DNA of 43,011 nt from a virus. Below the pieces are notes generated by a model. That model was not told the origin of the DNA and made no database searches. It worked only from the letters and a program-made list of their open reading frames with translations. Position numbers and translations under genes: made by a program. The stretch spans positions 1 to 43,011 of IMG/VR virus record IMGVR_UViG_3300011126_000139; one strand, 5' to 3'. Below, piece after piece: positions 5,260 through 42,547 of this stretch. How positions within the stretch are numbered: the first letter of the stretch is position 1; the number at the start of each line of letters is the position of its first letter.

Positions 5260-5546
5260 AACCGGAAGACCGAAAACGGTTGATTATAAATGCTGCAATT
5301 GATGTCGCCAAAGAAATTGGTGTGTTCAAGTTCAGCATCACCAATGTTTCACGGCATCTGACCGGCACATCGAAGGCAACCATCAAACACTATTTCACGA
5401 TGGAAGAACTACGCACTGCAGTTATCAATGAGGCTATCGAACGCACCGATTGTTTGTTGATCGTCGCACAAGCCGTCGCAATGCGTCACCTAGCTGTTTC
5501 GCATTTTGATGAAAATATCAGGACGGAATATTTGAAGCATGTTTAA
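5238..5546 (+). CDS. TetR-like helix-turn-helix protein without ligand domain
   Basis: 102 aa, ATG 5238 inside the end of the nuclease gene. Residues about 12-65 read like the TetR N-terminal domain: a helix with LIINAAIDVAKEIG, then FSITNVSRHLTGTSKATIKH as helix-turn-helix and a YFTMEELRTAV helix. TetR proteins are normally about 200 aa with a ligand/dimer domain; here only about 40 residues follow, so it is a minimal DNA-binding version. It could be the regulator of one of the palindromes in this genome (2501..2547 or 13351..13360); this is inference. Its end overlaps the primase-helicase start by 8 bases. Confidence 0.65.
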   Translation: MSKRTRLKPEDRKRLIINAAIDVAKEIGVFKFSITNVSRHLTGTSKATIKHYFTMEELRTAVINEAIERTDCLLIVAQAVAMRHLAVSHFDENIRTEYLKHV

Positions 5547-7851
5547 TTTACATCAGTGGATCACATGGCAACCGGTGCAGTTCGAAGGCGAACCGAAACC
5601 ACGTAAGATACCATGCGGGGGCAACGATGCACACAATCCCGTAAATTGGATGCCGCTTGAAGCTGCACAAGCCATCAGCACGACCATTGGTTTTGTGCTG
5701 ACTGAAGCCGATCCATATTTTTGTATCGACATCGATCATGCACGTTCTGCTGACCCCAACAATCCTGAACAGTGGGGACCGTGGTCACAGCTTGCAACAT
5801 CGGTGTGTGCACTATTTCCCGGTGCGTATATCGAAGTCAGTTATACCGGTGACGGGCTTCATATTTTTGCACAGGGCGTCAAGCCTGAAGGCTTCAAGAC
5901 AAAAAATTCACCACTTGGTTTAGAAGTTTATGACAACAAACGCTTCATTGCAGTGACCCGTGCCGGTTCATCAGGCACGCCTGACATCAACCATCAATTT
6001 GCACTAACAGCATTCGTCACCGCTTATATGGAACAGTCCATTCAAGCGAACCCTGTCAATTGGACCAATGGACCCCGTGCAGATTGGAACGGTCCAATCG
6101 ATGACGATGAATTGATTGCAAAGTTCTTGGCAATGCGTCCCACGGCTGATCAGTTATGGAACGGCAAAGCAACATTAAAAGACCTTTGGGAATGTAACGT
6201 TGCAGCACTGAACGTCTCATATGATGACGGCAACGGTAGCTATGATGATTCACAAGCAGATTTAGCACTTGCTTCACATCTTGCATTTTGGACCGGCTGT
6301 GATTGTGCGCGTATTGAACGTCTGATGTGGCGTTCAGGTTTGGTGCGTCCGAAATGGACTGAACATCGGTCTTATCTAAGTGAACGGACCATCGCCAAGG
6401 CTGCTGGTTCATGTCAGAACGTCTACAGTGACCCTAAAGCACAACAGACCCATGTGATGGAACCGATGCCGCCACAGGGGCAGGGACAAGGGCAACAGCA
6501 GACGTTCGAAGCTGCACCGGGACAAATCAGGCAGGGACTGCAATACCTGACACCTGATGCACAGTTCGACCACTTCAAAGGCTGTGTCTATATCATCAAA
6601 ACACATACGATCTTGCGCCCCAATGGAACACAGGTTTCACCCGAACAATTCAAGGTCATCTATGGTGGCTATGATTTTGCAATGGATACCGAAAACCACA
6701 AATCAACAAAATGTGCTTGGGAAGCTTTCAGCAAATCCCGTGCCGTGAAATTTCCGATTGTTGAAAGTATTTTATTCCGTCCCGAACTTGAACCCGGTGT
6801 GATCATCGAACATGAAGGTATGCCGTGCGTGAATTCATATCACCCCGTACCCATTCGCAGAATTGAAGGCGACATCACCCCGTTTATGGATTTGCTGTAT
6901 AAGCTTTTCCCCGATGACCGTGACCGTTCCATTATCCTTGCTTATATGGCTGCATGTGTTCAGCACATCGGTACAAAATTTCAATGGTCACCGTTGGTTC
7001 AGGGCGTTGAGGGCAACGGTAAATCATTCTTGATGGAAGCTATCATTCAAAGTGTTGGATCACGTCTGTCACATTCGGTGAACCCGAAAGATGTCGGCAA
7101 CGTTTTCAACGCATGGATCGAAGGCAAAGTTTTTGTCGGCATCGAAGAAGTTCATGTCAGTGACAAACGTGACTTGATTGATGCGCTGAAGATTTTGATC
7201 ACCAATCGCAGGGTCGAAATCCAAGCCAAAGGCGGCAATCAATACATGGGTGATAACTGTGCAAATTTCTTTATGAATACCAATTATCAAGACGCCATCA
7301 AGAAAACCAAAAACGACCGTCGTTATGCACCGTTCTTCACACCGCAACAGACGTATGATGACATTCTTCGTTGCGGTATGGGTGGTGATTATTTCCCAAC
7401 GCTCTATGCATGGGCACGGGCTGACGGTTATGCGATCATCGCAAATTATCTGAACACCTATCAGATACCCGATGAACTGAACCCGGCAACGAAACTGCAC
7501 CGCGCACCGGAAACTTCATCAACTGTGAACGCGATTCAAGCCTCACAGGGTCCGGTTGAACAGGAAATCGAAAACGCCATTGAAGAAGGGCTTCAGGGTT
7601 TCCGTGGTGGTTGGGTATCATCGATCAAATTGAACGAACTGTTGCAGCAGACAGGCAAGGCTAGAATGATACCGCGCAACCGTCGTACTGACATGATGGA
7701 AACAATGGGGTACACCAACACCGGGCGTTCATCGATGCAAATCATACAAGAAAAAGGGCGTCCGATGCTTTATGTAAAACAAGGGACACCCACCATCACA
7801 GGGGACTTGGCTTTTGACTACATGAATGCACAGGGTTACATGATACCCTAG
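5539..7851 (+). CDS. Primase-helicase (prim-pol-like N-terminus, DUF5906-type SF3 helicase C-terminus)
   Basis: 770 aa, ATG 5539. The N-terminal domain carries the prim-pol-like signature DIDHA (Asp64 and Asp66) and SYTGDGLHIF, the h-x-H strand of the archaeo-eukaryotic primase fold. The C-terminal part has Walker A GVEGNGKS at 489-496, a Walker B-like VFVGIEEVH, and a sensor-type asparagine in FFMNTNY, as in DUF5906/P4-type superfamily 3 helicases. A Gln-rich linker (QGQGQGQQQ) joins the two. It would synthesise primers and unwind DNA for the family B polymerase encoded on the other strand. It ends by sharing a CTAG with the opposing gene. Confidence 0.88.
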   Translation: MFNLHQWITWQPVQFEGEPKPRKIPCGGNDAHNPVNWMPLEAAQAISTTIGFVLTEADPYFCIDIDHARSADPNNPEQWGPWSQLATSVCALFPGAYIEVSYTGDGLHIFAQGVKPEGFKTKNSPLGLEVYDNKRFIAVTRAGSSGTPDINHQFALTAFVTAYMEQSIQANPVNWTNGPRADWNGPIDDDELIAKFLAMRPTADQLWNGKATLKDLWECNVAALNVSYDDGNGSYDDSQADLALASHLAFWTGCDCARIERLMWRSGLVRPKWTEHRSYLSERTIAKAAGSCQNVYSDPKAQQTHVMEPMPPQGQGQGQQQTFEAAPGQIRQGLQYLTPDAQFDHFKGCVYIIKTHTILRPNGTQVSPEQFKVIYGGYDFAMDTENHKSTKCAWEAFSKSRAVKFPIVESILFRPELEPGVIIEHEGMPCVNSYHPVPIRRIEGDITPFMDLLYKLFPDDRDRSIILAYMAACVQHIGTKFQWSPLVQGVEGNGKSFLMEAIIQSVGSRLSHSVNPKDVGNVFNAWIEGKVFVGIEEVHVSDKRDLIDALKILITNRRVEIQAKGGNQYMGDNCANFFMNTNYQDAIKKTKNDRRYAPFFTPQQTYDDILRCGMGGDYFPTLYAWARADGYAIIANYLNTYQIPDELNPATKLHRAPETSSTVNAIQASQGPVEQEIENAIEEGLQGFRGGWVSSIKLNELLQQTGKARMIPRNRRTDMMETMGYTNTGRSSMQIIQEKGRPMLYVKQGTPTITGDLAFDYMNAQGYMIP

Positions 7852-14628: not shown

Positions 14629-15914
14629 ACGCCTTCAGCCGCACCGACAAGCAGCGTGAAGCAACTGCCATCCTTGCCGGTTCAGAAGAAGCTGGTTTGT
14701 TCGGTGGGTCACGGTCAGGCAAAACCTTCATCATCATCAGATCAATTATCATTCGTGCCTGTAAGACCAAATCACGGCACCTGATCGCACGTCTGCATTT
14801 CAACCACGTCAAAACGTCAATCTGGTATGACACCCTGCCCAAGGTTCTTGAAACTTGCTTTCCTGATTTGAAAGTTGAAATGAACAAGTCTGATTGGTTC
14901 ATTAAGTTTCCCAACGGTTCTGAAATTTGGCTTGGTGGTGTTGACGACAAAGAACGTGTTGAAAAAATCCTTGGTACTGAATTTTCAACCATCTACATCA
15001 ATGAAACATCGCAGGTCAGTTATGATGCGGTGACGATGCTGCAGACCCGGCTTGCTGAAAACAGCGGTCTTGAATTGCGCATGTGGTACGACTTCAACCC
15101 ACCTTCAAAAAAGCATTGGACCTATCTTTATTTTGTCTTGGGCATCAGTCCTGAAGACCTGAAGCCGTTAGCCGAAAAAATCCCTTACCTGATCATGAAC
15201 CCCGGTGACAACCTTCAGAACCTGCCACCGTCATATTTGAAACGTCTTGCACGGTTGCCCAAGCGTCAACGTGACCGGTTCCTTGATGGCAAGTTCACGC
15301 TTGATACCGAAGGCGCGTTATGGACGTATGATCAAATCATCGATGCCCGTGCCCGTGACATCGCCATCGTTAACCGAACCGTGGTTGCAGTCGATCCTGC
15401 TGTGACGAACAACCCCGATAGCGATGAATGCGGGATCATCGTCGCATCAAGTGAAAACAAAGCGATGGAAGATGTGGACGGTGAATTAGTCGATGCGTTT
15501 CGTATTGATGCTGACTACAGCGGCAAGTTCAGTACACAGACATGGGCATTGCGTGCCATCAACGCCTATAATCATCACGATGCCGACGCCATTGTTGCTG
15601 AAGTCAATCAGGGTGGTGATTTGGTTGAAGATGTTTTAAGGTTGAATGGTTTTAAAGGGCGGGTTATCAAGATACACGCCAAAAAGGGCAAAGCATTAAG
15701 GGCTGAACCGATTGTTGCGCTATATGAACAAGATCGTGTTGCCCATGCCGATGACCTTGACGACCTTGAAAGTGAAATGATGGAGTGGGTGCCAATGAAC
15801 ACCAAAGATTCACCAAACAGAATTGATGCAGCGGTATATGCCATCGCTGAACTTGCCGGTGAAGGTGATAACCTTGGTGACCTGCTTGAAATGGCAATTG
15901 GGAGTATGCGCTAA
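14625..15914 (+). CDS. terL: Terminase large subunit (ATPase-nuclease)
   Basis: 429 aa. Walker A GGSRSGKT at residues 27-34 and a Walker B-like TIYINE at 122-127. The N-terminal ATPase drives DNA into the prohead; the C-terminal RNase H-like nuclease cuts DNA, with AVDPAV at about 252 as its first acidic strand and RIDAAVYAIAE as the distal Asp region. Length and order are normal for a terminase. It follows terS and is translationally coupled to the portal gene (TAATG). Confidence 0.95.
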   Translation: MNAFSRTDKQREATAILAGSEEAGLFGGSRSGKTFIIIRSIIIRACKTKSRHLIARLHFNHVKTSIWYDTLPKVLETCFPDLKVEMNKSDWFIKFPNGSEIWLGGVDDKERVEKILGTEFSTIYINETSQVSYDAVTMLQTRLAENSGLELRMWYDFNPPSKKHWTYLYFVLGISPEDLKPLAEKIPYLIMNPGDNLQNLPPSYLKRLARLPKRQRDRFLDGKFTLDTEGALWTYDQIIDARARDIAIVNRTVVAVDPAVTNNPDSDECGIIVASSENKAMEDVDGELVDAFRIDADYSGKFSTQTWALRAINAYNHHDADAIVAEVNQGGDLVEDVLRLNGFKGRVIKIHAKKGKALRAEPIVALYEQDRVAHADDLDDLESEMMEWVPMNTKDSPNRIDAAVYAIAELAGEGDNLGDLLEMAIGSMR

Positions 15915-17320
15915 TGCCTTGGCCTTGGAACCGTAAACCAGCCGAACCTGAAATCAACGTCACCATCAAACAAGAGGTCATGAACGCACTTCAGCACATG
16001 ACGCTTGAAGGTAACGCGATCAGTGACGAAGGAATTCGTCAACGCATGGGGCAAGTCATTTCGGGTGGCTATGACTATGCCGACACCATGCACAATATCT
16101 ATCTTGATTACGGCTATCCTTCATCGCTGACCTTTATTAATTTTTGGAACATGTATCGTCGTTTTGGCATCGCCCGGAACGTTGTCGAACTTCCTGTTGA
16201 TACGGGTTGGATGACCACACCTGAAATTGAAGGTTCAGAAAAGTTCAACAAAGAAGTCGAATTGTTGATCAAGCAAGTCAAACTGTGGGATCGGTTACGG
16301 GCGTTGGACACACGTCAGCGCGTCGGTCGTTATGCTGGTATGTTCATGCGTGTTCGGGATGGTAAGAAGCCCAACGAACCACTTGACGGTGGTGTTAACG
16401 GTATCGGGTCCATCATCGCTATGATGCCTATTTACGAAAATCAATTGAAGGTCAGTACCACCGAAAATGACCCGATGTCCGATAACTACGGTCAACCGAC
16501 GATGTACGAGTTTCAAAGCAGTGCGACAGGCAACCGCAACGAACAAGCTTCCACATCTTTTGCTATTCATCCTTCACGCATCGTCATCGCTGCTGAAGGT
16601 GCTGACAACGGTGGTATCTATGGCATTCCAAGTCTTGAAGCCTCTTACAACTCATTGATGGATTTGCGCAAGATCATCGGTGCAGGTGGTGAAGGGTTTT
16701 ATCGTAACGCTGCACAGAACCTTATCCACGAACTTCAGGACGGTGCGAGTGCTAAAAACAATGAAGCGATCCTTGCAAAGTTCAATGAAGCATCTGATGA
16801 CTTCATGCAGAACAGAATGCGTCGGAACATGTGGACACCGGGCATGAAGACAAAGGTTCTTGAATCGAACCTTGCCAATCCGAAAGACCCGTTCGCATGT
16901 GCACTGAATGACGTTGCTGCAGCGTCTAAAATCCCGGCAACGATCTTGATCGGTCAACAGACCGGGCGTCTTGCATCATCTGAAGATTCCCGTCACTTCC
17001 TATCAGGTATCAACAGCCGTCGTGAAAACTTCATGACCGAAATGATCCGTGATGTCATCGATTGGTGCATTCTGAACAAGGTATTGCCTTCATCCGAATA
17101 TGAGGTTGAATGGGATGACCTGCTTGAACTTGGTGTGTCCGAACGTTTGGGTAACTCCAAGCTGATGAGTGAAATCAACGAACGCGAATTCAAATCAGGC
17201 AATGACACACCCTTCAGTTCGGAAGAAATTCGTGACCAAGCTGGTTTTGAACCTGAAGACATGGAAGAACCTGAAGGTGAACCGGAAGGTGATGAAGATG
17301 ACCCTGAACCGGTCGAATAA
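15914..17320 (+). CDS. Portal protein (DUF1073 family)
   Basis: 468 aa, ATG 15914 in TAATG overlap with terL. Recognisable DUF1073 features: NFWNMYRRFGIARNVVELP, the GRYAGMFMRVRDG block, FAIHPSRIVIAAEG, and PATILIGQQTGRLASSEDSR near the C-terminus. The portal forms the dodecameric DNA channel at one head vertex. A strongly acidic tail (EPEGEPEGDEDDPEPVE) follows. Its end overlaps the next gene by 23 bases. Confidence 0.92.
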   Translation: MPWPWNRKPAEPEINVTIKQEVMNALQHMTLEGNAISDEGIRQRMGQVISGGYDYADTMHNIYLDYGYPSSLTFINFWNMYRRFGIARNVVELPVDTGWMTTPEIEGSEKFNKEVELLIKQVKLWDRLRALDTRQRVGRYAGMFMRVRDGKKPNEPLDGGVNGIGSIIAMMPIYENQLKVSTTENDPMSDNYGQPTMYEFQSSATGNRNEQASTSFAIHPSRIVIAAEGADNGGIYGIPSLEASYNSLMDLRKIIGAGGEGFYRNAAQNLIHELQDGASAKNNEAILAKFNEASDDFMQNRMRRNMWTPGMKTKVLESNLANPKDPFACALNDVAAASKIPATILIGQQTGRLASSEDSRHFLSGINSRRENFMTEMIRDVIDWCILNKVLPSSEYEVEWDDLLELGVSERLGNSKLMSEINEREFKSGNDTPFSSEEIRDQAGFEPEDMEEPEGEPEGDEDDPEPVE

Positions 17321-20200: not shown

Positions 20201-21268
20201 ATGCTATTTCAACAGTCTCTAATCGGCAACAGCCGTGCGGGTCGTTCGCAGTGGGATGAAGTGCGTGCTGCACGTGAAGCATTCACCGCGAACGAAAACC
20301 ATCTGATTGCCATCCAACGCGGTGCCGGTTTGGTTGCCAACGAAGGCCTCATTCCGCAAGACGTTTATCAGGAATTCGATAACGTCACCGTTGAACGTTT
20401 CCGTTCTGATGATGGCGATGCATACTTGAACGATCTGCTGCCGCTTTCACGCTCTGTGAACATCGGCAAGTTGGTTCACAAGTTCCGTCGTGCATCCGAT
20501 GCCGGTCAAACACAGACTTCGATGACCGGTCAGATTGGCGTCAAAATGGATCAGGTTGAATTCAATTATGACGGAACCATCATTCCCGTTCATGATACAG
20601 GGTTCTACCGCAATTGGCGCGAATGGAACGCAGGTCAGTCTGAAGGCTTTGATGCCTTGATTGACGATCAACGTGAATCAGTTGGTGCGTTGCGTCGTCG
20701 TTTGGCTGACAATTTCCTTGACGGTCATCTTGACGCTGATGGAAACTTCATCGTGGTCGATGGTATTGATTGGCAGGGTATGCGTAACGACAGTCGCGTT
20801 GCACAGGTCAACCTTGGTGTTGCCGGTATCAACTTTGACTTCACCGATTCCACCAAGACGTTTCTTGAAATTGAAGCTGCCTTCAAGCAGGTTCGTAACG
20901 TTCTGTGGATCAACAACAACTGCGAAAAAGACGCGACGTACTATATCAGTCGTGAAATCGCTTCCAACTTCGAACGTTACAGTTCTGAATTTGCCAGCAG
21001 CGACAACAAAATCTTGCAGCGTTTGTCAAGCCTTCAGGGTGTCAAGGAAATCAAAGCATCGTCCAAACTTTCGGGCAATGAATTCATGGCCTTCCCGCTT
21101 GATGGTGAATCTGTTCGTCCGATTGTCGGGATGGGTTTGAACACTGTTGCCATGCCGCGCCCTGTGTACAATTCGAATTACGACTTCGTTGTTTGGGGTG
21201 CTGTTGGTTTCTCTGTTCGCACCGATTACACAAGTCAGAAATGTGCACTGTTTGCACAAGTGCTGTAA
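20201..21268 (+). CDS. Major capsid protein
   Basis: 355 aa, ATG 20201 with GGAAGGAA upstream. Position after scaffold and decoration, length, and an HK97-like feel (N-terminal arm RSQWDEVRAAREAFTANENH, DVYQEFDNVTVERFRSDDGD, then a SYTSQKCALFAQVL-like final strand) identify the capsid. It resembles the DUF6260-type capsids seen with DUF2213 proteases. No cleavage site can be fixed by eye. Confidence 0.88.
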   Translation: MLFQQSLIGNSRAGRSQWDEVRAAREAFTANENHLIAIQRGAGLVANEGLIPQDVYQEFDNVTVERFRSDDGDAYLNDLLPLSRSVNIGKLVHKFRRASDAGQTQTSMTGQIGVKMDQVEFNYDGTIIPVHDTGFYRNWREWNAGQSEGFDALIDDQRESVGALRRRLADNFLDGHLDADGNFIVVDGIDWQGMRNDSRVAQVNLGVAGINFDFTDSTKTFLEIEAAFKQVRNVLWINNNCEKDATYYISREIASNFERYSSEFASSDNKILQRLSSLQGVKEIKASSKLSGNEFMAFPLDGESVRPIVGMGLNTVAMPRPVYNSNYDFVVWGAVGFSVRTDYTSQKCALFAQVL

Positions 21269-25401: not shown

Positions 25402-26994
25402 ATGGCTGGTTCACCCACTTCAAACCCGCGTGTCAACATTCAGTTGTTACCTGCTGCACTTGTTGACGCTTTCGAAGATCGTCGTTGCATCATCTTTGGT
25501 CAAACCGGCCCCGGTGGTGCAGCCGTCAGTGAAGCACTTAACATCAATCTTCACACGGCAACCGATGCTGAAATTCAAGCATTGTTTGGTACGTCTGATC
25601 TGTACTGGAAAATTCTTGCATGGCGTAACGGTGCACAGGTTTCTGATGGCGGCATCGTTCCGACGTTGGATGTCATTTCTGTTGCCCCTGCCGGTGGTGC
25701 AGTCGCTGCAGCATCAACGATTACATTTGCAGGTGCGGCAACTGCTGCCGGTTCTTACACGGTATCGATTGTTGACGAAAAAGAATTCACTGTCATCGTA
25801 CCTGTCGCCAATGGCGATGCAGATACCGTTGTTGCCGCTGCTGTTAATGCTGCAATCAATCTGCTGACCGATGCACCGTTTTCGTCAAGTGTTTTGCTTG
25901 GTGTGGTCACCATCACGGCTGATGATGTCGGCACGCTTGGCAATGATTACGGTGTGCGTGTTACCGGTGTTGTCACCAATCAGACTGCTGTACTGACCGC
26001 CTTCACAGGGGGCGTGACTGACCCCGTATTGACTTCCGTCTTGGATGCGATTGATGGTCGTCGTTATACCGGTGCACAGTGGCCTGAATCATGGGTCGTC
26101 ACCACCATCGCTGATGAATTTGCTGCACGCTTCAACGTCGCAAACGATATCCTTGACGGTGTGGTGTTCCAAGGTAGCACCGACACCTTTGCAAACAACA
26201 CAGCTTTGGTTGCACCTTTGAACAATCAAGCATTGGTCATCATGGGCAACAACATCAGTGCAACCGCACTTGATAAAGGTCCATCGATTTTGCAGCCCGC
26301 TGATTGGGTGGCATCGTTCTTCATGGCAGTTCGTGACAAACGTCTGTCTACAGGTGCATTGATCGCTGACTTGATCGTTGCACAGAACGCACCACAAGAC
26401 GCGCTTGGTGGTCCTGCCTTGGCATCCCTGCCATACTTCAACACACCGCTGACCGACACCCCTGTGACGGGTTCTGTTAACCTGTACAATTCGACCGAAC
26501 AGATTGAACTTGAAAATGACGGGTTCACAAGCTTCGGTGTGAACACTGTCGGCAACGCAATGTTGATGGGTCCGGTTGTCACGACTTGGACCACTGATGC
26601 AGCGGGCAATGCTAACGCTTCGTTTCATTACCTGAACTATGTTGACACCGGTTCTGTTTGTCGTGAAATCTTCTTCCGTACCCTGAAGGCTGTTTTCTCA
26701 CAACACCGCTTGACCGAAGGGAACATTGTGGAAGGTCGTGCGATGACCAATGAACTTGGTATCAAAGGTGAACTTCTGAACATCTATCGTGTGCTTGCAA
26801 ACAACGCACTTACACAGGCGGGTTCGGATGCTGAAGCGTTCTTCAACACCAACACAACCGTGGTGGTCAGCCTTGCAGATCGCACTGTGACGATCAACGG
26901 ACCTTTGCCGATTGTTACCCAATTGGGCACGATCAATTATAACCTGTCTTTGGCGTTTACGGTTGGTCAGACCGGCACGCAAATCACTCTGTAA
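25402..26994 (+). CDS. Tail sheath protein
   Basis: 530 aa, ATG 25402 (MAGSPTSNPRVNIQLLPAAL). Features of Mu gpL sheaths: an N-terminal GQTGPGGAAVSEALN region, the beta-barrel insert DVISVAPAGGAVAAASTITF with TADDVGTLGNDYGVRV, and the conserved C-terminus GNIVEGRAMTNELGIKGELL ... NYNLSLAFTVGQTG. It forms the contractile outer tail cylinder around the tube. Confidence 0.93.
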   Translation: MAGSPTSNPRVNIQLLPAALVDAFEDRRCIIFGQTGPGGAAVSEALNINLHTATDAEIQALFGTSDLYWKILAWRNGAQVSDGGIVPTLDVISVAPAGGAVAAASTITFAGAATAAGSYTVSIVDEKEFTVIVPVANGDADTVVAAAVNAAINLLTDAPFSSSVLLGVVTITADDVGTLGNDYGVRVTGVVTNQTAVLTAFTGGVTDPVLTSVLDAIDGRRYTGAQWPESWVVTTIADEFAARFNVANDILDGVVFQGSTDTFANNTALVAPLNNQALVIMGNNISATALDKGPSILQPADWVASFFMAVRDKRLSTGALIADLIVAQNAPQDALGGPALASLPYFNTPLTDTPVTGSVNLYNSTEQIELENDGFTSFGVNTVGNAMLMGPVVTTWTTDAAGNANASFHYLNYVDTGSVCREIFFRTLKAVFSQHRLTEGNIVEGRAMTNELGIKGELLNIYRVLANNALTQAGSDAEAFFNTNTTVVVSLADRTVTINGPLPIVTQLGTINYNLSLAFTVGQTGTQITL

Positions 26995-27008: not shown

Positions 27009-27407
27009 ATGGCGCGTGTAGCACTGTCCGTCCCTGAAATTCTCGTCAACGATGAGAAAATTTCAATCGTCCCGAACTCATTCACATATGACAAGGGTGA
27101 ACCTGAAATCACTGTTCGTGCAGCAAGTGCGGGTAATGGTGGTTCTGAATCCGTTCATACTGTCAATGCCGAAAGTGCATTTTCTGAACCGTCGTTTTCT
27201 GTCCATGTGACGAACGAAAATGACGCCCGTATCCGTCAGTGGAAAGACAATATTGGTGCAAATGTCATCAAAGCCGTTCAGCGTGTGCCGGGTGGTAACG
27301 ACATTGTTTTGACTTTCCCCGGTCAATCGCTTACCAATAAGCCTAGCCGTGAAGCTGCTGCCGATGGCGTGACTTCACTTGAATTTAAGGGTGATCAGGG
27401 GATTTAA
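27009..27407 (+). CDS. Tail tube protein
   Basis: 132 aa, ATG 27009 with AAAAGGAA upstream, directly after the sheath. Beta-rich: VNDEKISIVPNSFTYDKGEP and FSVHVTNENDARIRQWKDNI. This is the position and size of the Mu gpM tube. Hexameric rings stack to form the DNA channel. Confidence 0.85.
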   Translation: MARVALSVPEILVNDEKISIVPNSFTYDKGEPEITVRAASAGNGGSESVHTVNAESAFSEPSFSVHVTNENDARIRQWKDNIGANVIKAVQRVPGGNDIVLTFPGQSLTNKPSREAAADGVTSLEFKGDQGI

Positions 27408-27408
27408 A

Positions 27409-27966
27409 ATGCTTGCCGATGGAACGTTTGATTTCGAATTGCGCAAGTCAATTGAGGTTGCAGGGTGTAATGGCCCTGCAGCCACTTTGACTTTTCACGA
27501 ATGCGGTGAAGGTTACGATAGCTATTATATGAAGCTGCGTAAGTTTGTTCTTTCAGCAATGCTGAAGGCACCTGAACTGATGGAAAAATTAGGAAAGTTC
27601 GTCACCAAAGACGATGAACTTCCTGCAGGTGACGAAGTGAAACCATTGCATCAAATTGATGAGAAAGATCATCTTTCTGATTCCAAAGGTTTTGCTGAAG
27701 TTCTGAAAATCACGTTGGGCACTTCTGACGATCTTGAAGAATTGATCACTGTCTTCGGACACATGGTGTCGAACAGTGGCGGCAATGCCATCTGCACAAT
27801 CGATGGCGTGCGTATTAAAGAAGGTGCATGGAAACGGCTTCATCCTGAAGACAAGATTGATGCAGCGGTGCAATACTGCTCTTTTTTCGGCATAGGGTTG
27901 GACCAAGTATCGAACAGCGCATCAGAAGCTGCGTCCGAATCGCCTACGGAAGTGAAAGTTCTTTAA
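27409..27966 (+). CDS. Tail assembly chaperone, 0-frame product (185 aa)
   Basis: ATG 27409 (MLADGTFDFELRKSIEVAGC), one base after the tube gene stop. It occupies the place of the lambda G / Mu gp41 chaperone between tube and tape measure. A SFF codon run at 158-160 overlaps a T TTT TTC slippery site at 27882..27888. The 0 frame ends at 27966 (SESPTEVKVL). Ribosomes shifting -1 make a 215-aa version (see the extension). Confidence 0.82.
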   Translation: MLADGTFDFELRKSIEVAGCNGPAATLTFHECGEGYDSYYMKLRKFVLSAMLKAPELMEKLGKFVTKDDELPAGDEVKPLHQIDEKDHLSDSKGFAEVLKITLGTSDDLEELITVFGHMVSNSGGNAICTIDGVRIKEGAWKRLHPEDKIDAAVQYCSFFGIGLDQVSNSASEAASESPTEVKVL

Positions 27967-28055
27967 CCGTAAGCGAATGTCTTGGAATGACCACATATCA
28001 ACTTTCAGTTATTGATGATGAGTTGAACAACATCAGACGAAGATCAAAGGGTTGA
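27888..28055 (+). CDS. Frameshift extension of the tail assembly chaperone (-1 frame)
   Basis: Read in the -1 frame after T TTT TTC this gives RHRVGPSIEQRIRSCVRIAY ... SLTVSECLGMTTYQLSVIDD ... and stops at TGA 28053..28055, adjacent to the tape-measure ATG 28056. The -1 frame is open only from 27861, so the shift must lie in 27861..27966. It fills the 89 bases left empty otherwise. The fused product is 215 aa. Known role of such extensions: they bind the tape measure, while the short form coats it. Confidence 0.72.
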   Translation, partial: RHRVGPSIEQRIRSCVRIAYGSESSLTVSECLGMTTYQLSVIDDELNNIRRRSKG

Positions 28056-29867
28056 ATGATGGTTAACACAGTTTCATATCTCTATGAGATTTTAGATCGT
28101 TATTCAGCACCTTTGCGTAAGATCACACGCGATACCCAAAAGTTTGCCCGCACCACCGTCAAAGCACAAGGCGGTGTTGCGGGTATGTCTATGCGCATGG
28201 ACAAGTTCGCTAGGAAGGCCCAAAACTTACAGGGTGCACTTGGTGCATTGGGGTTGGGTGCCGCACTTGTGTCCACTGTGAAAGTATCATCTGACATGGA
28301 AGATGCCATGCAGGATATCGGACGTGTGACCGATGTCAGTGCTGATGGATTGATGCGTTTCGAAACCACCCTTGAAAATATGTCTGAAGCCCTTGGTAAG
28401 TCAAAAGAAGGCTTGGCTAAGATGGCGTTCGAAGGCGGCAAGCTTGGTATCCCGATCAATATGATGGAAGAATTCTTGATGATGACATCAAGGACTGCCA
28501 TCGCGTTTGATATGGTCGATGAAGAAGCGGGTCGTTCCATTGGTTCAATTCAGGCCAAGATGGGCTTGATGGGCAAGGATGCCGAAAAACTTCTAGATTC
28601 CATGAACTATCTTGCCGACACCACAAGTGCGAACGGTGAACGGATGATCGAAATCACCGAACGTCTTTCAGGTACGTTTAAGATTTTGGAATTGCCGCCA
28701 TCTGTAGCTGCTGCGTTCGCTGGTTTTGCTGATCAGATCGAAGTCACACCACAGCTTGCCGCGTCCGGTATGAACATGATGATCAGGCAGATGCGCAAGA
28801 TGCCCGGTATGACAACAAAGATGATGGCTGATCCCATTGGTGTTGTTAACGACCAACTTCAGAAGCTGGCAAAGATGGGACCGGAAGTCCGTACACGATA
28901 TATGATGAAAGTGTTCGGTCCTGAAGCAGCCAAGTTCGTTGAAAAAGCTGTTGGTAATATCAAACTGTACGGTAAGACCGTTGAAAATGCGATGTCGGCT
29001 AAAGCTGCCGGTTCCATGCAGCGCGAACTTGAAAATCAAATGAGGCGTTCAAGCAAGACCTTTCAGAAATTCAGTGAAACATGGAAGAACACCGTTGACG
29101 CAATCGGTGATGCAATCAAGCCGTTGGCGACGTTGTTCGCTAAAATCGGCACTGTGTTCGCTGATGTCATCGGTACGTTGGTTAAAGGTTCACCAATGCT
29201 CATACGACTTGTGGCAATCATCGCAGGTGCCGTCGTCGTGTTCACAGGGTTGTCACTGGTTGCAGGGATGCTTGCTGCTGCCCTTGCCCCCGTCTTGGCG
29301 ACGATAGCAGCCATTTCAGCCCCTGTGTGGGCAGTGATCGCCGCTGTGACTGCTGCTGTTCTTCTGTTCGCTGAATGGGAATCGTCGGGACACCCTATCA
29401 TTAGGATGTTTGGTGATATGTTCGGTGATATCGGTGCTATTTTAAAACCCATTGGTGAACTGTTAGGGCTTGTTGAAGAAGGTTCTGACGGCTTCAGTAT
29501 GTGGGGTGTTGCAATTGAAAAGTTGGGCTATGCGATCATGGTCGTTTTGACCCCTTTGAAAATGTTCTTGGTGGGTTTGAAAGGTATCGTTGAAGCCGGT
29601 GCTGCTATGGCATCAGGTGATTTTAGTGGTGCATTAGACAGGTTGAAGTCAACAGGGTCTGATGTCATGGGTGCTGGCATGGAAGGAATTCAAGCAGCCG
29701 GTGCAACGCTTGGTATTGAAAGTTCAAAAGCAGCCCTTCAGAACAAACAAGGTGCACAAGGCGTTGCCGTTAGCGGTGGTATCTCTGTGACTGCCACAAG
29801 TGGTGCTAAGGTCAACAGTTCTGCAATCCAACTTAACGGTGGTGCCAACCTAGCAGGTGCAATGTAA
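28056..29867 (+). CDS. Tail tape measure protein (TP901-like)
   Basis: 603 aa, ATG 28056 (or 28059). The N-terminal TP901 core is evident in MEDAMQDIGRVTDVSADGLM and KMGLMGKDAEKLLDSMNYLA. Hydrophobic helices follow at the middle (LVAIIAGAVVVFTGLSLVAG, LAAALAPVLATIAAISAPVW). It spans the tail lumen and sets tail length; at 1.5 angstrom per residue the tail would be about 90 nm (estimate). Confidence 0.92.
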   Translation: MMVNTVSYLYEILDRYSAPLRKITRDTQKFARTTVKAQGGVAGMSMRMDKFARKAQNLQGALGALGLGAALVSTVKVSSDMEDAMQDIGRVTDVSADGLMRFETTLENMSEALGKSKEGLAKMAFEGGKLGIPINMMEEFLMMTSRTAIAFDMVDEEAGRSIGSIQAKMGLMGKDAEKLLDSMNYLADTTSANGERMIEITERLSGTFKILELPPSVAAAFAGFADQIEVTPQLAASGMNMMIRQMRKMPGMTTKMMADPIGVVNDQLQKLAKMGPEVRTRYMMKVFGPEAAKFVEKAVGNIKLYGKTVENAMSAKAAGSMQRELENQMRRSSKTFQKFSETWKNTVDAIGDAIKPLATLFAKIGTVFADVIGTLVKGSPMLIRLVAIIAGAVVVFTGLSLVAGMLAAALAPVLATIAAISAPVWAVIAAVTAAVLLFAEWESSGHPIIRMFGDMFGDIGAILKPIGELLGLVEEGSDGFSMWGVAIEKLGYAIMVVLTPLKMFLVGLKGIVEAGAAMASGDFSGALDRLKSTGSDVMGAGMEGIQAAGATLGIESSKAALQNKQGAQGVAVSGGISVTATSGAKVNSSAIQLNGGANLAGAM

Positions 29868-31195
29868 TGGCTGATAATAGAACATCACAGCTTTTGGCTG
29901 CATCCTTCAAAGGTGTTTCGTTTTCGGTGCGATCAGAAACAGCTTCTGAATTGGGTCGAAAATTGGTGCTGCACGATTACGTGAATTCAAGTGAACGGTT
30001 CGTTGAAGACCAAGGTCAAATACCACCCAAGTTCTCTATTCGGGCGTTTGTTCATGGTGCTGATTTCATAGCCCGTGCAGCGCGTCTTGAACAAGCCCTT
30101 AATGAAGGCGGTGCCGGTCAGCTTTCGATGCCTGTGTTCGGTGTTGTAAAAGCGTATGCAGGTGCTTATTCAAAAGACGCAAGTCAACAAAGCGTCGGTG
30201 AAATCAGCTACACAATTCCGTTCGTTACAGGGCGTCCTGCACCGGGTCCGTCTGTATCGCGTGTGGGCATCGAAGATGTGTATCAAGCCGGTGATCAGGC
30301 TAGGAAAGCGATTGAAGACACGTTTGCTGTTCTTTATCCACCGCCTGAAAATTCTGCAAATTCTGTTGCATCAATCGGTGACCTGAACAACATCGTTGAT
30401 AACGTCCGTGACACAATCAAAACCATTCTTCCTGTTGAAGATTTGGTACAGGTCTTTAGAACAGTTGACACCATCAGATTGAACGCGGCAAAGCTTGTCC
30501 GTGATCCCGCATCCTTGGCACCGACACTGCTTGCAGGTATCCCCGGTGCACCGGGATTGTGGCAATCAATCAGCTTAGGGTTAAGTGAAGTTCAAGCACT
30601 TGGTGCCGGTGTTGAACAGCTTGCGTTATTGAGCAACCTAGGTGGTGGGTTGTCACTATCGATCAATGATGTCAACCGTGCAACGTCTGTCGATCCTAAT
30701 TCGTCACAAATCCCCCTGTGGCCTTCAACCACAAAGGAAAGAATTGATCGCAACACGGCACGCCAAACAATTGCACAGGGCAACCGTATTGCTTCGATGG
30801 TTGGTCTATACGAAGTCGCTGCTGCACGATCATATAAAACTGATGATGAAATTGTTGCTGTTCGAAATCTGATCGAAGGATTGCATGAACGCATCATGCG
30901 AACTGAAACGGTTGACTATGCATTGATCCAATCAAACCCAACGGTAAGATCATCGATTGAAGATGTCCGTCTTGCTGCATTGAATGTCATGGGTCAGAAA
31001 GAACAGGAAACGTTTGAAATCATCACGGATAACACAGGGGCACCGACATCAGCCCTTGTACGTTCATATGCACTTTATGCCGAACAATTCATCAACCCTG
31101 ATCAGCTTGCCGCACGTGCTGTTGATATCGCAAATCTAAATACATCACAGTCATCTGCCGGGTTGGTTGACGACTTCAAGATTTTTCAGGTGTAG
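29867..31195 (+). CDS. DNA circularisation protein (Mu gp43-like, DNA_circ_N)
   Basis: 442 aa, ATG 29867 in TAATG overlap. N-terminal DNA_circ_N block: LLAASFKGVSFSVRSETASE, LHDYVNSSERFVEDQGQIPP, and GEISYTIPFVTG. Such proteins follow the tape measure and belong to the baseplate hub/tail tip; the name is historical. The rest is helical. Confidence 0.88.
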   Translation: MADNRTSQLLAASFKGVSFSVRSETASELGRKLVLHDYVNSSERFVEDQGQIPPKFSIRAFVHGADFIARAARLEQALNEGGAGQLSMPVFGVVKAYAGAYSKDASQQSVGEISYTIPFVTGRPAPGPSVSRVGIEDVYQAGDQARKAIEDTFAVLYPPPENSANSVASIGDLNNIVDNVRDTIKTILPVEDLVQVFRTVDTIRLNAAKLVRDPASLAPTLLAGIPGAPGLWQSISLGLSEVQALGAGVEQLALLSNLGGGLSLSINDVNRATSVDPNSSQIPLWPSTTKERIDRNTARQTIAQGNRIASMVGLYEVAAARSYKTDDEIVAVRNLIEGLHERIMRTETVDYALIQSNPTVRSSIEDVRLAALNVMGQKEQETFEIITDNTGAPTSALVRSYALYAEQFINPDQLAARAVDIANLNTSQSSAGLVDDFKIFQV

Positions 31196-31198
31196 TCG

Positions 31199-32332
31199 AT
31201 GGCGGGTTTTGAAATTTCAGTCAACGGCAAGATTTTTAGCAATTGGACAACAGCCCGGTTGACAAGAACCATCGATGAAAATGCGGGGAAGTTTCAGTTT
31301 TCATCAAGCAATGTCATTCCCGCTAACTATCCTGTTCGTGCCGGTGATGCCGTGCAAATTCTCATCAATGGTGAACCAAAGCTGACAGGGTTCTGTGATG
31401 CACTTGAATCATCCGTTGAAGAAGGCGTTGACACCATCACAGTGATGGGGCGCGACAACACCTGTGACTTGATCGATTCAAGTATGCCTGACGCTGTGAA
31501 GTCGATTAACGGACCATTGCAGTTAGTGGACCTGATTGAAAAAGTGATCGAAGCCTTGGGTGCAAATATTGGGGCGCGTGATTTTTCAGGGGGTATCAAA
31601 GAATTTAGTGAAAATGAATTCTTCGGTGCTGATGCTGGTAAAAACTGCATGGAATTTCTGACTGACTTTGCCCGCAAACGTCAGGTTTATTTAATCCCTA
31701 GCGGTGATGGTCTGTTAGTGGTCTTCCGTCCCGCTGAAACAATTCAACCCGGCATCATCATGAACCGTCGTGACGATACTGAAAACAATGTCATATCGTC
31801 ATCGGTTCGATTGGATCATTCACAACGGTTCGGTAAATACTCATCACGGTCACAGGATAATTTCGGTGCTGATTCTGATGCTGATTATGAATTTGGTGTT
31901 GATCGCAAAGGTGAAACCGTTGACAGTCAGATTAGGTCAAGTCGTTTCCTTGAAATTCAGCCTGAAGAAAACATGGATGACACCGAAACTAAAGATCGTG
32001 CTGTTGAAGAATCAAACATCCGTCGTGCCCGGTCAACGGCTTACACCGCTGTGATTGCGGGTGTCGAACGCGCCCCCGGTGTGTTGTGGGACTTCGGTCA
32101 ACTGACCAAGGTCAACGACGATTTTTCAGGCATGACAGGGGTGTTCCTGACGCGATCAGTTGACTATTCTGTTGATCGAAATTCAGGCACAAGAACGACC
32201 ATCGTGCTTGCACCGCCTGAAGCATACAATGTCAGACCATCGACCCAAGGGGATGCACGACGCGCCAAACAGGGTGATGCACTGCAAACCCAAACACCAC
32301 CTAATGTATCGTTAAGAGGGTCCGTCTTATGA
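31199..32332 (+). CDS. Baseplate hub protein (Mu gp44 / late control D-like)
   Basis: 377 aa, ATG 31199 (MAGFEISVNGKIFSNWTTAR). Opening and VRAGDAVQILINGEPKLTGF, TITVMGRDNTCDLIDSS, and NCMEFLTDFARKRQVYLIPS match gp44/gpD hub proteins. It forms the trimeric hub that holds the spike. A Gln/Thr-rich C-terminus follows. Confidence 0.9.
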   Translation: MAGFEISVNGKIFSNWTTARLTRTIDENAGKFQFSSSNVIPANYPVRAGDAVQILINGEPKLTGFCDALESSVEEGVDTITVMGRDNTCDLIDSSMPDAVKSINGPLQLVDLIEKVIEALGANIGARDFSGGIKEFSENEFFGADAGKNCMEFLTDFARKRQVYLIPSGDGLLVVFRPAETIQPGIIMNRRDDTENNVISSSVRLDHSQRFGKYSSRSQDNFGADSDADYEFGVDRKGETVDSQIRSSRFLEIQPEENMDDTETKDRAVEESNIRRARSTAYTAVIAGVERAPGVLWDFGQLTKVNDDFSGMTGVFLTRSVDYSVDRNSGTRTTIVLAPPEAYNVRPSTQGDARRAKQGDALQTQTPPNVSLRGSVL

Positions 32333-40504: not shown

Positions 40505-42547
40505 CTATACCTTTCTTATCGAATCCACAAGTTTATGTGCTTCAGAAATATAATAATCATGATTGATGTTTGACCCGTTAACGTACCTGATATCATTGCA
40601 CGGTTCGACTTTCCAACCAACCACTTCACCCATGCGACGGGTCACATATCTGCCTTGGTTCTTTTGATGAATATCAGGGGACCAAGCGTCACCGTTCGCT
40701 TGATGCCATGCAAAATACTGTGCATCGCTGACACCTTTTCCTTTCTTCAACCAACCCACGGTGTGCGGCTTAGTCGGTGGCGATATCTTGAACAACGAAC
40801 CGCCCCTGTGTGAAACATAATATCGTGTCACCCGCTGCTGTGTGTGTTCAACACCGTTGTCATCGACCAAGACCAATTGCGATGAACGCGGTGTTTTGGT
40901 ACGACACATGAAGTCCATGATGTCACGGTCAGGTGATCGAATGAATTCTTCGATGCTGACGCCATGCACAAGGGCTGCTTCAGCGGCTTTGGGCACGACC
41001 AAGGCTGACATGTTCTGATGCCATCCCAAGGGGGCGCGATCTTGCGGCTGCTTGCTTTCATAAGCACCTTTGGTCTTGGTCTTTCCGTCTTCATAAACAC
41101 CGATGTAGTTATTGACATCACGGATATACATCGCTTGATAATTGACATCTTCAAGTTCAAGACCTGTGATTGTTTCCCAATGACGTGCACAGATATCAAC
41201 GGCACTAACAGCGCCACGGGGGACTTTCACAGTCAGACCATCGGTGTTGATTTGGATCAATGACAAGCCGGGAATATCAAGCAACGATTCAGCCAACATG
41301 CAAAGCAGAAGCTGACCGTTCATCGTGATCGCCATCGTATATTTAGGATCGAAGAACGGTGAATAAGGATTGTTCGAATCACCGTAAACACCGTTCAAGG
41401 CAAGCTTCAACATTCCGTTTTCAACTGTCTTCTTCGCATAGGTCTTGCGCTGTTCATAAACATCTTTGTAAATGGTGCAGAACGTTTCACCCAAGTGTTC
41501 GGGGAACAGACGATTTACAATAGCGATGTTGGGATAATATGACGCAACGTCAAGATCGATGATTGCATAATCATCATCGGCAACCACAGCGGCACCCGTT
41601 AACGATCCATGAATTCCACCCGTACCGAAATCATATTTGAAACCATTGACGACACAGTGAACACCTTTGAAAACGCCCTTGGTGTTGACGCCTTTGGTGT
41701 CGGTGTCTTTCAAATCCTTTGATGTCAGCGTCTGCGTCTTCATCCATTCAAGGATACGATTGAATTCGTAATTTCTGAACTGCACATATGGAAAAATCAC
41801 ATCAGCAAGCGGCACGCCATTTGCGCGGCTGGTTTGACGCGGTTGACGCTTGTTGTTTTGATCATAATAAAAGCACGTACCCGGCGCGTTCTCATCAAGA
41901 CGCATGATGAAATAATCTTTGCCGATTTTGGTGTCGTTGTGGTTGGTGAAGTCCTTGCCGTATTTCGCTGATAACTGATCACGGAAATCGATCATCGGCT
42001 TGGTGTGGTGGAAGAACTTCACGGTTTCATCGACATCGTGCATGTTGTAGTGACCAAGCACGGGCATTTCATCAACAGTCAATATATGACCCGGTTCAAA
42101 TGGAAGGTCACTGACGTTTATTGAACGCATGTTGAATTCAAGAACCTTCAACGATGTTGATTTCGCTACATTATCAAAATGATGAATTTTAAAAAGATCG
42201 ATTTGCCTGATCCACGGTTTCCAAATGACATGACCGAAGCGATCATTCGAAGCAAATATTGATTGATTTTTTTCATAGATATAAGCGTTTAGTGCTTGGG
42301 CATTTAGGTTTGACCAAGCCGGTGCACACTGTATCATGTGATGGATCATCGGATAATCGTAATGAAGATTATTGAAGCCCACCATCGATGCACTTGAACC
42401 ACCCAAGGCATGAAGGAAAGTCATCAGCCCGTGAAAGTCGTTGCGACGTTCCGAAACTTCATAATACCAACGATCATCATTTTCAACATGCTTAGATGAA
42501 AAAGTGAAAATGTTGGGATAACATTCGATGTCGTAACCATAATTCAC
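40505..42547 (-). CDS. Family B DNA polymerase
   Basis: 680 aa from GTG 42547 (MNYGYDIECYPNIFTFSS) with AAGGA nine bases upstream. Exonuclease: DIE at 6-8, the Asn-x-x-His-x-Asp region to Asp64, and YNMHD (167-171). Polymerase: motif A DLDVASYYPN at 331-340, motif B KLALNGVYGD at 381-390, motif C NTDG with Asp436. In motif C the first Asp of DTD is Asn434, but the catalytic second Asp is kept. It also has GTGGIHG (309-314). It replicates the phage genome with proofreading. Confidence 0.93.
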   Translation of the reverse strand: MNYGYDIECYPNIFTFSSKHVENDDRWYYEVSERRNDFHGLMTFLHALGGSSASMVGFNNLHYDYPMIHHMIQCAPAWSNLNAQALNAYIYEKNQSIFASNDRFGHVIWKPWIRQIDLFKIHHFDNVAKSTSLKVLEFNMRSINVSDLPFEPGHILTVDEMPVLGHYNMHDVDETVKFFHHTKPMIDFRDQLSAKYGKDFTNHNDTKIGKDYFIMRLDENAPGTCFYYDQNNKRQPRQTSRANGVPLADVIFPYVQFRNYEFNRILEWMKTQTLTSKDLKDTDTKGVNTKGVFKGVHCVVNGFKYDFGTGGIHGSLTGAAVVADDDYAIIDLDVASYYPNIAIVNRLFPEHLGETFCTIYKDVYEQRKTYAKKTVENGMLKLALNGVYGDSNNPYSPFFDPKYTMAITMNGQLLLCMLAESLLDIPGLSLIQINTDGLTVKVPRGAVSAVDICARHWETITGLELEDVNYQAMYIRDVNNYIGVYEDGKTKTKGAYESKQPQDRAPLGWHQNMSALVVPKAAEAALVHGVSIEEFIRSPDRDIMDFMCRTKTPRSSQLVLVDDNGVEHTQQRVTRYYVSHRGGSLFKISPPTKPHTVGWLKKGKGVSDAQYFAWHQANGDAWSPDIHQKNQGRYVTRRMGEVVGWKVEPCNDIRYVNGSNINHDYYISEAHKLVDSIRKV

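Follow-up and report, generated by a model that had tools for sequence, protein, structure and literature searches.

The tail assembly chaperone gene of the virus studied here very probably (at about 95%) uses a programmed -1 ribosomal frameshift of the type known from lambda G/GT and from P2 E/E+E'. A one-letter step back at a slippery site, leading to a longer form of the tail chaperone, is familiar in most long-tailed phages. The DNA analysed, hereafter the window, is the whole 43,011-nt stretch of IMG/VR record IMGVR_UViG_3300011126_000139 (positions 1 to 43,011), and its tail genes include the following features:

25402..26994, plus strand: tail sheath (Mu gpL position; phrog_165 tail sheath)
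27009..27407, plus strand: probable tail tube protein (Mu gpM position), assigned by position only, after the sheath gene and before the chaperone gene; its L006 counterpart is 87% identical
27409..27966, plus strand: tail assembly chaperone, 0-frame product of 185 aa with a probable lambda gpG-like role, lying between tube and tape, with homologous ORFs at the same place in six relatives
27882..27888, plus strand: slippery heptamer T TTT TTC, putative -1 shift site, the sole in-register heptamer, kept in six relatives
27888..28055, plus strand: -1 frame extension of 55 codons plus TGA, putative lambda T-like domain (open frame, purifying selection, profile match to SfV-type -1 domains)
28056..29867, plus strand: tape measure protein of 603 aa (phrog_28, E 2.8e-46; PhageMin_Tail, PF10145)
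29867..31195, plus strand: DNA circularisation/baseplate protein (Mu gpN position; PF07157, E 1.1e-17)
31199..32332, plus strand: baseplate hub (Mu gpP), 26.6% identical to Mu P, with 94% of the query aligned

The order sheath-tube-chaperone-tape-circularisation-hub is that of Mu genes 39 to 44. Searches of Pfam and PHROG with the tube gene (27009..27407) gave no family match. The tape protein may start at the second ATG (28059), with which the tape start of L006 lines up, instead of the ATG at 28056. Elsewhere, the window encodes an NrS-1-type primase/polymerase domain (5539-7851), a Phage_portal_3 portal (15914-17320) and a DUF6260 virion protein (20201-21268). A transposable Mu phage has other head and replication genes, and the Mu-like tail block is therefore joined to a different head/replication module; outside the tail, in the genes tested (primase, portal, DUF6260 protein), the phage is not Mu-like. 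A 680-aa ORF at the right end (40505-42547, minus strand) has no Pfam match at E 0.001, and an Rfam search of the window gave no match.

The gene occupies the place of known -1 tail-chaperone frameshifts (lambda G/GT, P2 E/E+E'), between the tape gene and a tube gene itself assigned by position, and carries both a slippery heptamer and a -1 frame that stays open beyond the 0-frame stop and closes near the tape start. The initial annotation had read these features from the letters of the window, and its coordinates hold. Indeed, the 0-frame ORF runs from ATG 27409 to the TAA ending at 27966 (185 aa), and the -1 frame stays open between 27861 and 28055, i.e. over 64 codons closed by TGA 28053..28055. 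Of this -1 frame, 106 nt lie within the chaperone ORF, and the rest fills the 89 nt that separate the ORF from the tape ATG at 28056. The heptamer T TTT TTC (27882..27888) lies in register, and no other X-XXY-YYZ motif occurs anywhere in the ORF. A Mu-type -2 frameshift would involve a GGGGGC site and a -2 frame that remains open almost as far as the tape gene, a pattern that the window does not fit: its -2/+1 frame is not open, overlapping the ORF by only 11 nt and stopping 41 nt before the tape start.

Scans with the sheath and tape proteins yielded six informative relatives (L006 to L011), which together with the window form four sequence groups (window/L006, L007/L008, L009/L010 and L011); a near-identical contig (L005) adds nothing and L013 repeats L011. 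The chaperones of these relatives are 26-68% identical to that of the window. In all six, an in-register heptamer aligns with that of the window and the -1 frame is kept, so that the comparison with related phages proposed at the outset came out in favour of the frameshift. The heptamer is T TTT TTC in the window, L009 and L010, T TTT TTT in L006, L007 and L008, and A AAT TTT in L011, where the FF of the 0 frame becomes NF (Asn replacing the first Phe); the L011 site thus differs in sequence, yet still obeys the slippery rule. In every relative, the -1 extension runs 89-110 nt beyond the 0-frame stop, and it reaches the tape start in all but L009, in which a gene is inserted between the two. 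This gene (L009, 7711-8310, minus strand), antisense to its neighbours, encodes a recombination endonuclease VII (PF02945, E 2.5e-22); extension and tape gene abut in L010, the sister of L009.

Codon substitutions indicate that the -1 frame is translated. In three pairs, compared over short stretches (25-36 codons) that make single values rough, although the direction is identical in all three, the pN/pS of the 0 frame rises from 0.32, 0.20 and 0.13 before the heptamer to 0.59, 1.26 and 1.03 after it, and its pS falls from 0.60-0.70 to 0.08-0.29. For the -1 frame, pN/pS is 0.52, 0.27 and 0.22 within the overlap, then 0.33, 0.37 and 0.15 past the 0-frame stop. Such a pattern is expected if the overlap is read in both frames and the sequence beyond it in the -1 frame alone, and it amounts to protein-level selection on the extension.

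These data also bear on the idea that no frameshift takes place at all, the -1 ORF being a small gene of its own for which ribosomes reinitiate close to the 0-frame stop or past it. The window does possess a -1 frame ATG at 27987, 21 nt past the 0-frame stop, which such a gene could use. However, no -1 start codon position is common to all groups: L006 has no -1 start before GTG 3993, three codons ahead of its stop, and L009 none before GTG 7643, so that neither offers one before the last third of the extension. Furthermore, purifying selection on the -1 frame is already seen in the overlap, before any such start is reached, and the heptamer is kept at one position in seven sequences out of seven. 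A separate gene is thus very unlikely.

Equally improbable is slippage in transcription, by RNA polymerase on the T run rather than by the ribosome. A run of six T, or seven in three relatives, could in principle yield transcripts in mixed frames, but runs of this length are known to be short for such a process, and in L011 the site A AAT TTT, with a longest run of four, follows the ribosomal heptamer rule.

Chance, the weakest alternative, was evaluated by resampling at random the synonymous codons of the window's chaperone (20,000 draws): a heptamer at the same codon appears in 13% of the resamplings and a -1 frame open to the 0-frame stop in 8%, so that neither feature alone is rare in one genome and the window by itself is only moderately improbable, not decisive, but the recurrence of the same features in four sequence groups, with a -1 protein under selection, already refutes coincidence, whose probability is negligible. 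It is conservation in relatives, rather than a single genome, that settles the reality of the frameshift, as far as sequence comparison can speak for it.

Under the programmed -1 frameshift, most ribosomes would read the 0 frame to the TAA ending at 27966 and produce the 185-aa chaperone. In a minority of cases, the tRNA-Phe on TTT (P site) and TTC (A site) would move back by one base at 27882..27888 and re-pair with TTT TTT. Reading would then proceed from CGG 27888 to TGA 28053..28055, giving a 215-aa chaperone in which a C-terminal domain of about 55 residues replaces the 25-residue tail of the 0-frame product; its predicted junction sequence is ...QYCSFFRHRVGP... We infer the ribosomal nature of the slippage, the rate at which it occurs and the roles of the two products, these roles by analogy with lambda (PMC5009743). 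As for lambda gpG/gpGT, the part present in both products would cover the tape measure protein, and tail tube subunits would be brought in by the extension; the tube would then assemble around the tape, and tail length would be set in this way.

The initial annotation had added a possible stem downstream of the heptamer (GGAC 27900..27903 with GTCC 27933..27936, CAGC 27915..27918 with GCTG 27928..27931). Its letters are correctly placed, but the fold has a z of only -0.21 versus shuffles, and neither its bases nor its pairs are kept in L006, the 68%-identical relative. Across the window and the six relatives, five of the seven downstream regions have z values within +/-0.6 or positive; better-than-shuffle folds are found in L007 (-2.29) and L009 (-1.80) only, and their sisters do not share them. 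As no excess stability is shared across the seven sequences, we do not propose any stimulatory structure.

The 0-frame chaperone matches no chaperone family of Pfam or PHROG. The Phage_TAC_7 model (PF10109; P2 E, Mu 41, SfV), which matches 8 of 9 comparison chaperones, matches none of the seven chaperones of the window and its relatives at E 1. A weak similarity to Phage_TAC_7 members was found over 33 columns by the slip site (hhalign P 0.0014, score 26.4 versus 21.5 for the best shuffle). Compared with the PDB, the fold predicted for the chaperone, with a mean pLDDT of 71.3, has no convincing match. It resembles one unnamed viral model, A0A516MIJ9 (E 4.4e-11, TM 0.71, 23% identity), and its confidence drops below 50 from residue 165 on, just after the slip site. 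Scans of bacterial genomes with the chaperone found nothing, nor did a scan with the sheath alignment or tblastn of chaperone, sheath and tube against phage records. As neither a family nor a solved structure is matched, the chaperone is identified by its place and size, by the gene order and by the extension. The extension profile of the window's group matches the -1 extensions of nine phages, including SfV, AH07 and ST64B (hhalign P 3.4e-6, score 30.8); the score is 27.7 when the FF columns are removed, and the best of 150 column-shuffled controls reaches 13.7. With the -2 extensions of Mu and of the Vibrio, Shewanella and Alteromonadaceae phages, the same profile has no detectable relation.

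Tailed phages use -1, -2 or +1 shifts in their tail chaperones, Mu being a -2 case (PMC5009743; PMC2628397). It had been suggested that a -1 shift would be remarkable for a tail block of the Mu type. This part of the initial reading is not borne out. Among 14 phages with Mu-like tail genes, which are not a random sample since they were gathered through their matches to one of three proteins of the window (hub, circularisation, tape), with KS10 added from the literature, nine have a -1 heptamer and a -1 extension, and such a shift is therefore common in Mu-like tail blocks. The heptamer is T TTT TTC, identical to that of the window, in SfV and AH07, T TTT TTG in PY223, YPCBV-1 and PG1, T TTT TTT in RR1-A, phiAP1 and ST64B, and G GGT TTT in phiKM1. 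Four of the 14 (Mu, Vibrio 1.028.O, Shewanella MuM16-2 and Alteromonadaceae B23) carry the -2 site CGGGGGCGA; in KS10, the open frame is +1/-2. The literature agrees: in Mu-like Pseudomonas phages with tails unlike Mu's, T TTT TTC has been reported and the -2 shift of Mu called an exception (PMC4378225). The paper on Burkholderia phage KS10 reports no frameshift at the tail chaperone. In this phage (L032, 2871-3107), the final 185 nt of gp39 are open in the +1/-2 frame, which closes at the start of the tape gene, and the product of this frame matches the profile of the -1 extensions (hhalign P 9.1e-5, with a score of 25.1 versus 14.8 for the best shuffle); no slip site was identified in this chaperone gene.

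The closest parallels are SfV and the Pantoea phage AH07, which have contractile Mu-like tails and share with the window the order sheath-tube-chaperone-tape-N-P, the T TTT TTC site, a -1 frame ending at the tape start and, by profile, related extension domains. However, their 0-frame chaperone has 89 aa and belongs to Phage_TAC_7, whereas that of the window has 185 aa and no Pfam match. P2, which also has a contractile tail, uses a six-T run as the -1 site of its gene E (E/E+E'), as annotated in its record, but this site is T TTT TTG and the 0-frame protein has no detected sequence similarity to the window's. The P2 site has been described as T6G; T-run slip sites occur in P2-like phages, with T7C in some prophages (PMC3931495). 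Lambda G/GT differs by its G GGA AAG site, its longer T domain and its non-contractile tail. Mu gp41 and its Vibrio, Shewanella and Alteromonadaceae relatives occupy the same place in the same tail gene order but differ from the window in their -2 site, their open -2 frame and their extension. For the Pseudomonas aeruginosa Mu-like phage PaMx73, T TTT TTC and a -1 shift are reported among the tail assembly genes, but its tail is non-contractile and differs from Mu's (PMC4378225).

Globally, what stands of the initial annotation is the programmed -1 frameshift itself, for which the comparative evidence is strong, and not the stem or the notability of the shift. The window and its relatives have a real, conserved -1 frameshift of a well-known kind, which, by these comparisons, is no oddity for this tail type. 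The chaperone pair would work like the lambda and P2 pairs, its 0-frame protein being at best a candidate member of Phage_TAC_7. More tentatively, and with somewhat less than even odds, a chaperone family absent from Pfam and PHROGs may have been joined by frameshifting to an extension related to the SfV type, Mu-type tail blocks having switched slip direction between -1 and -2 while keeping the arrangement. The extended chaperone can be annotated in uncultured phages in which chaperone and extension match no family library, and the impression that Mu-like tails use -2 is corrected, -1 shifts at T-rich heptamers being the commoner in the sample compared.
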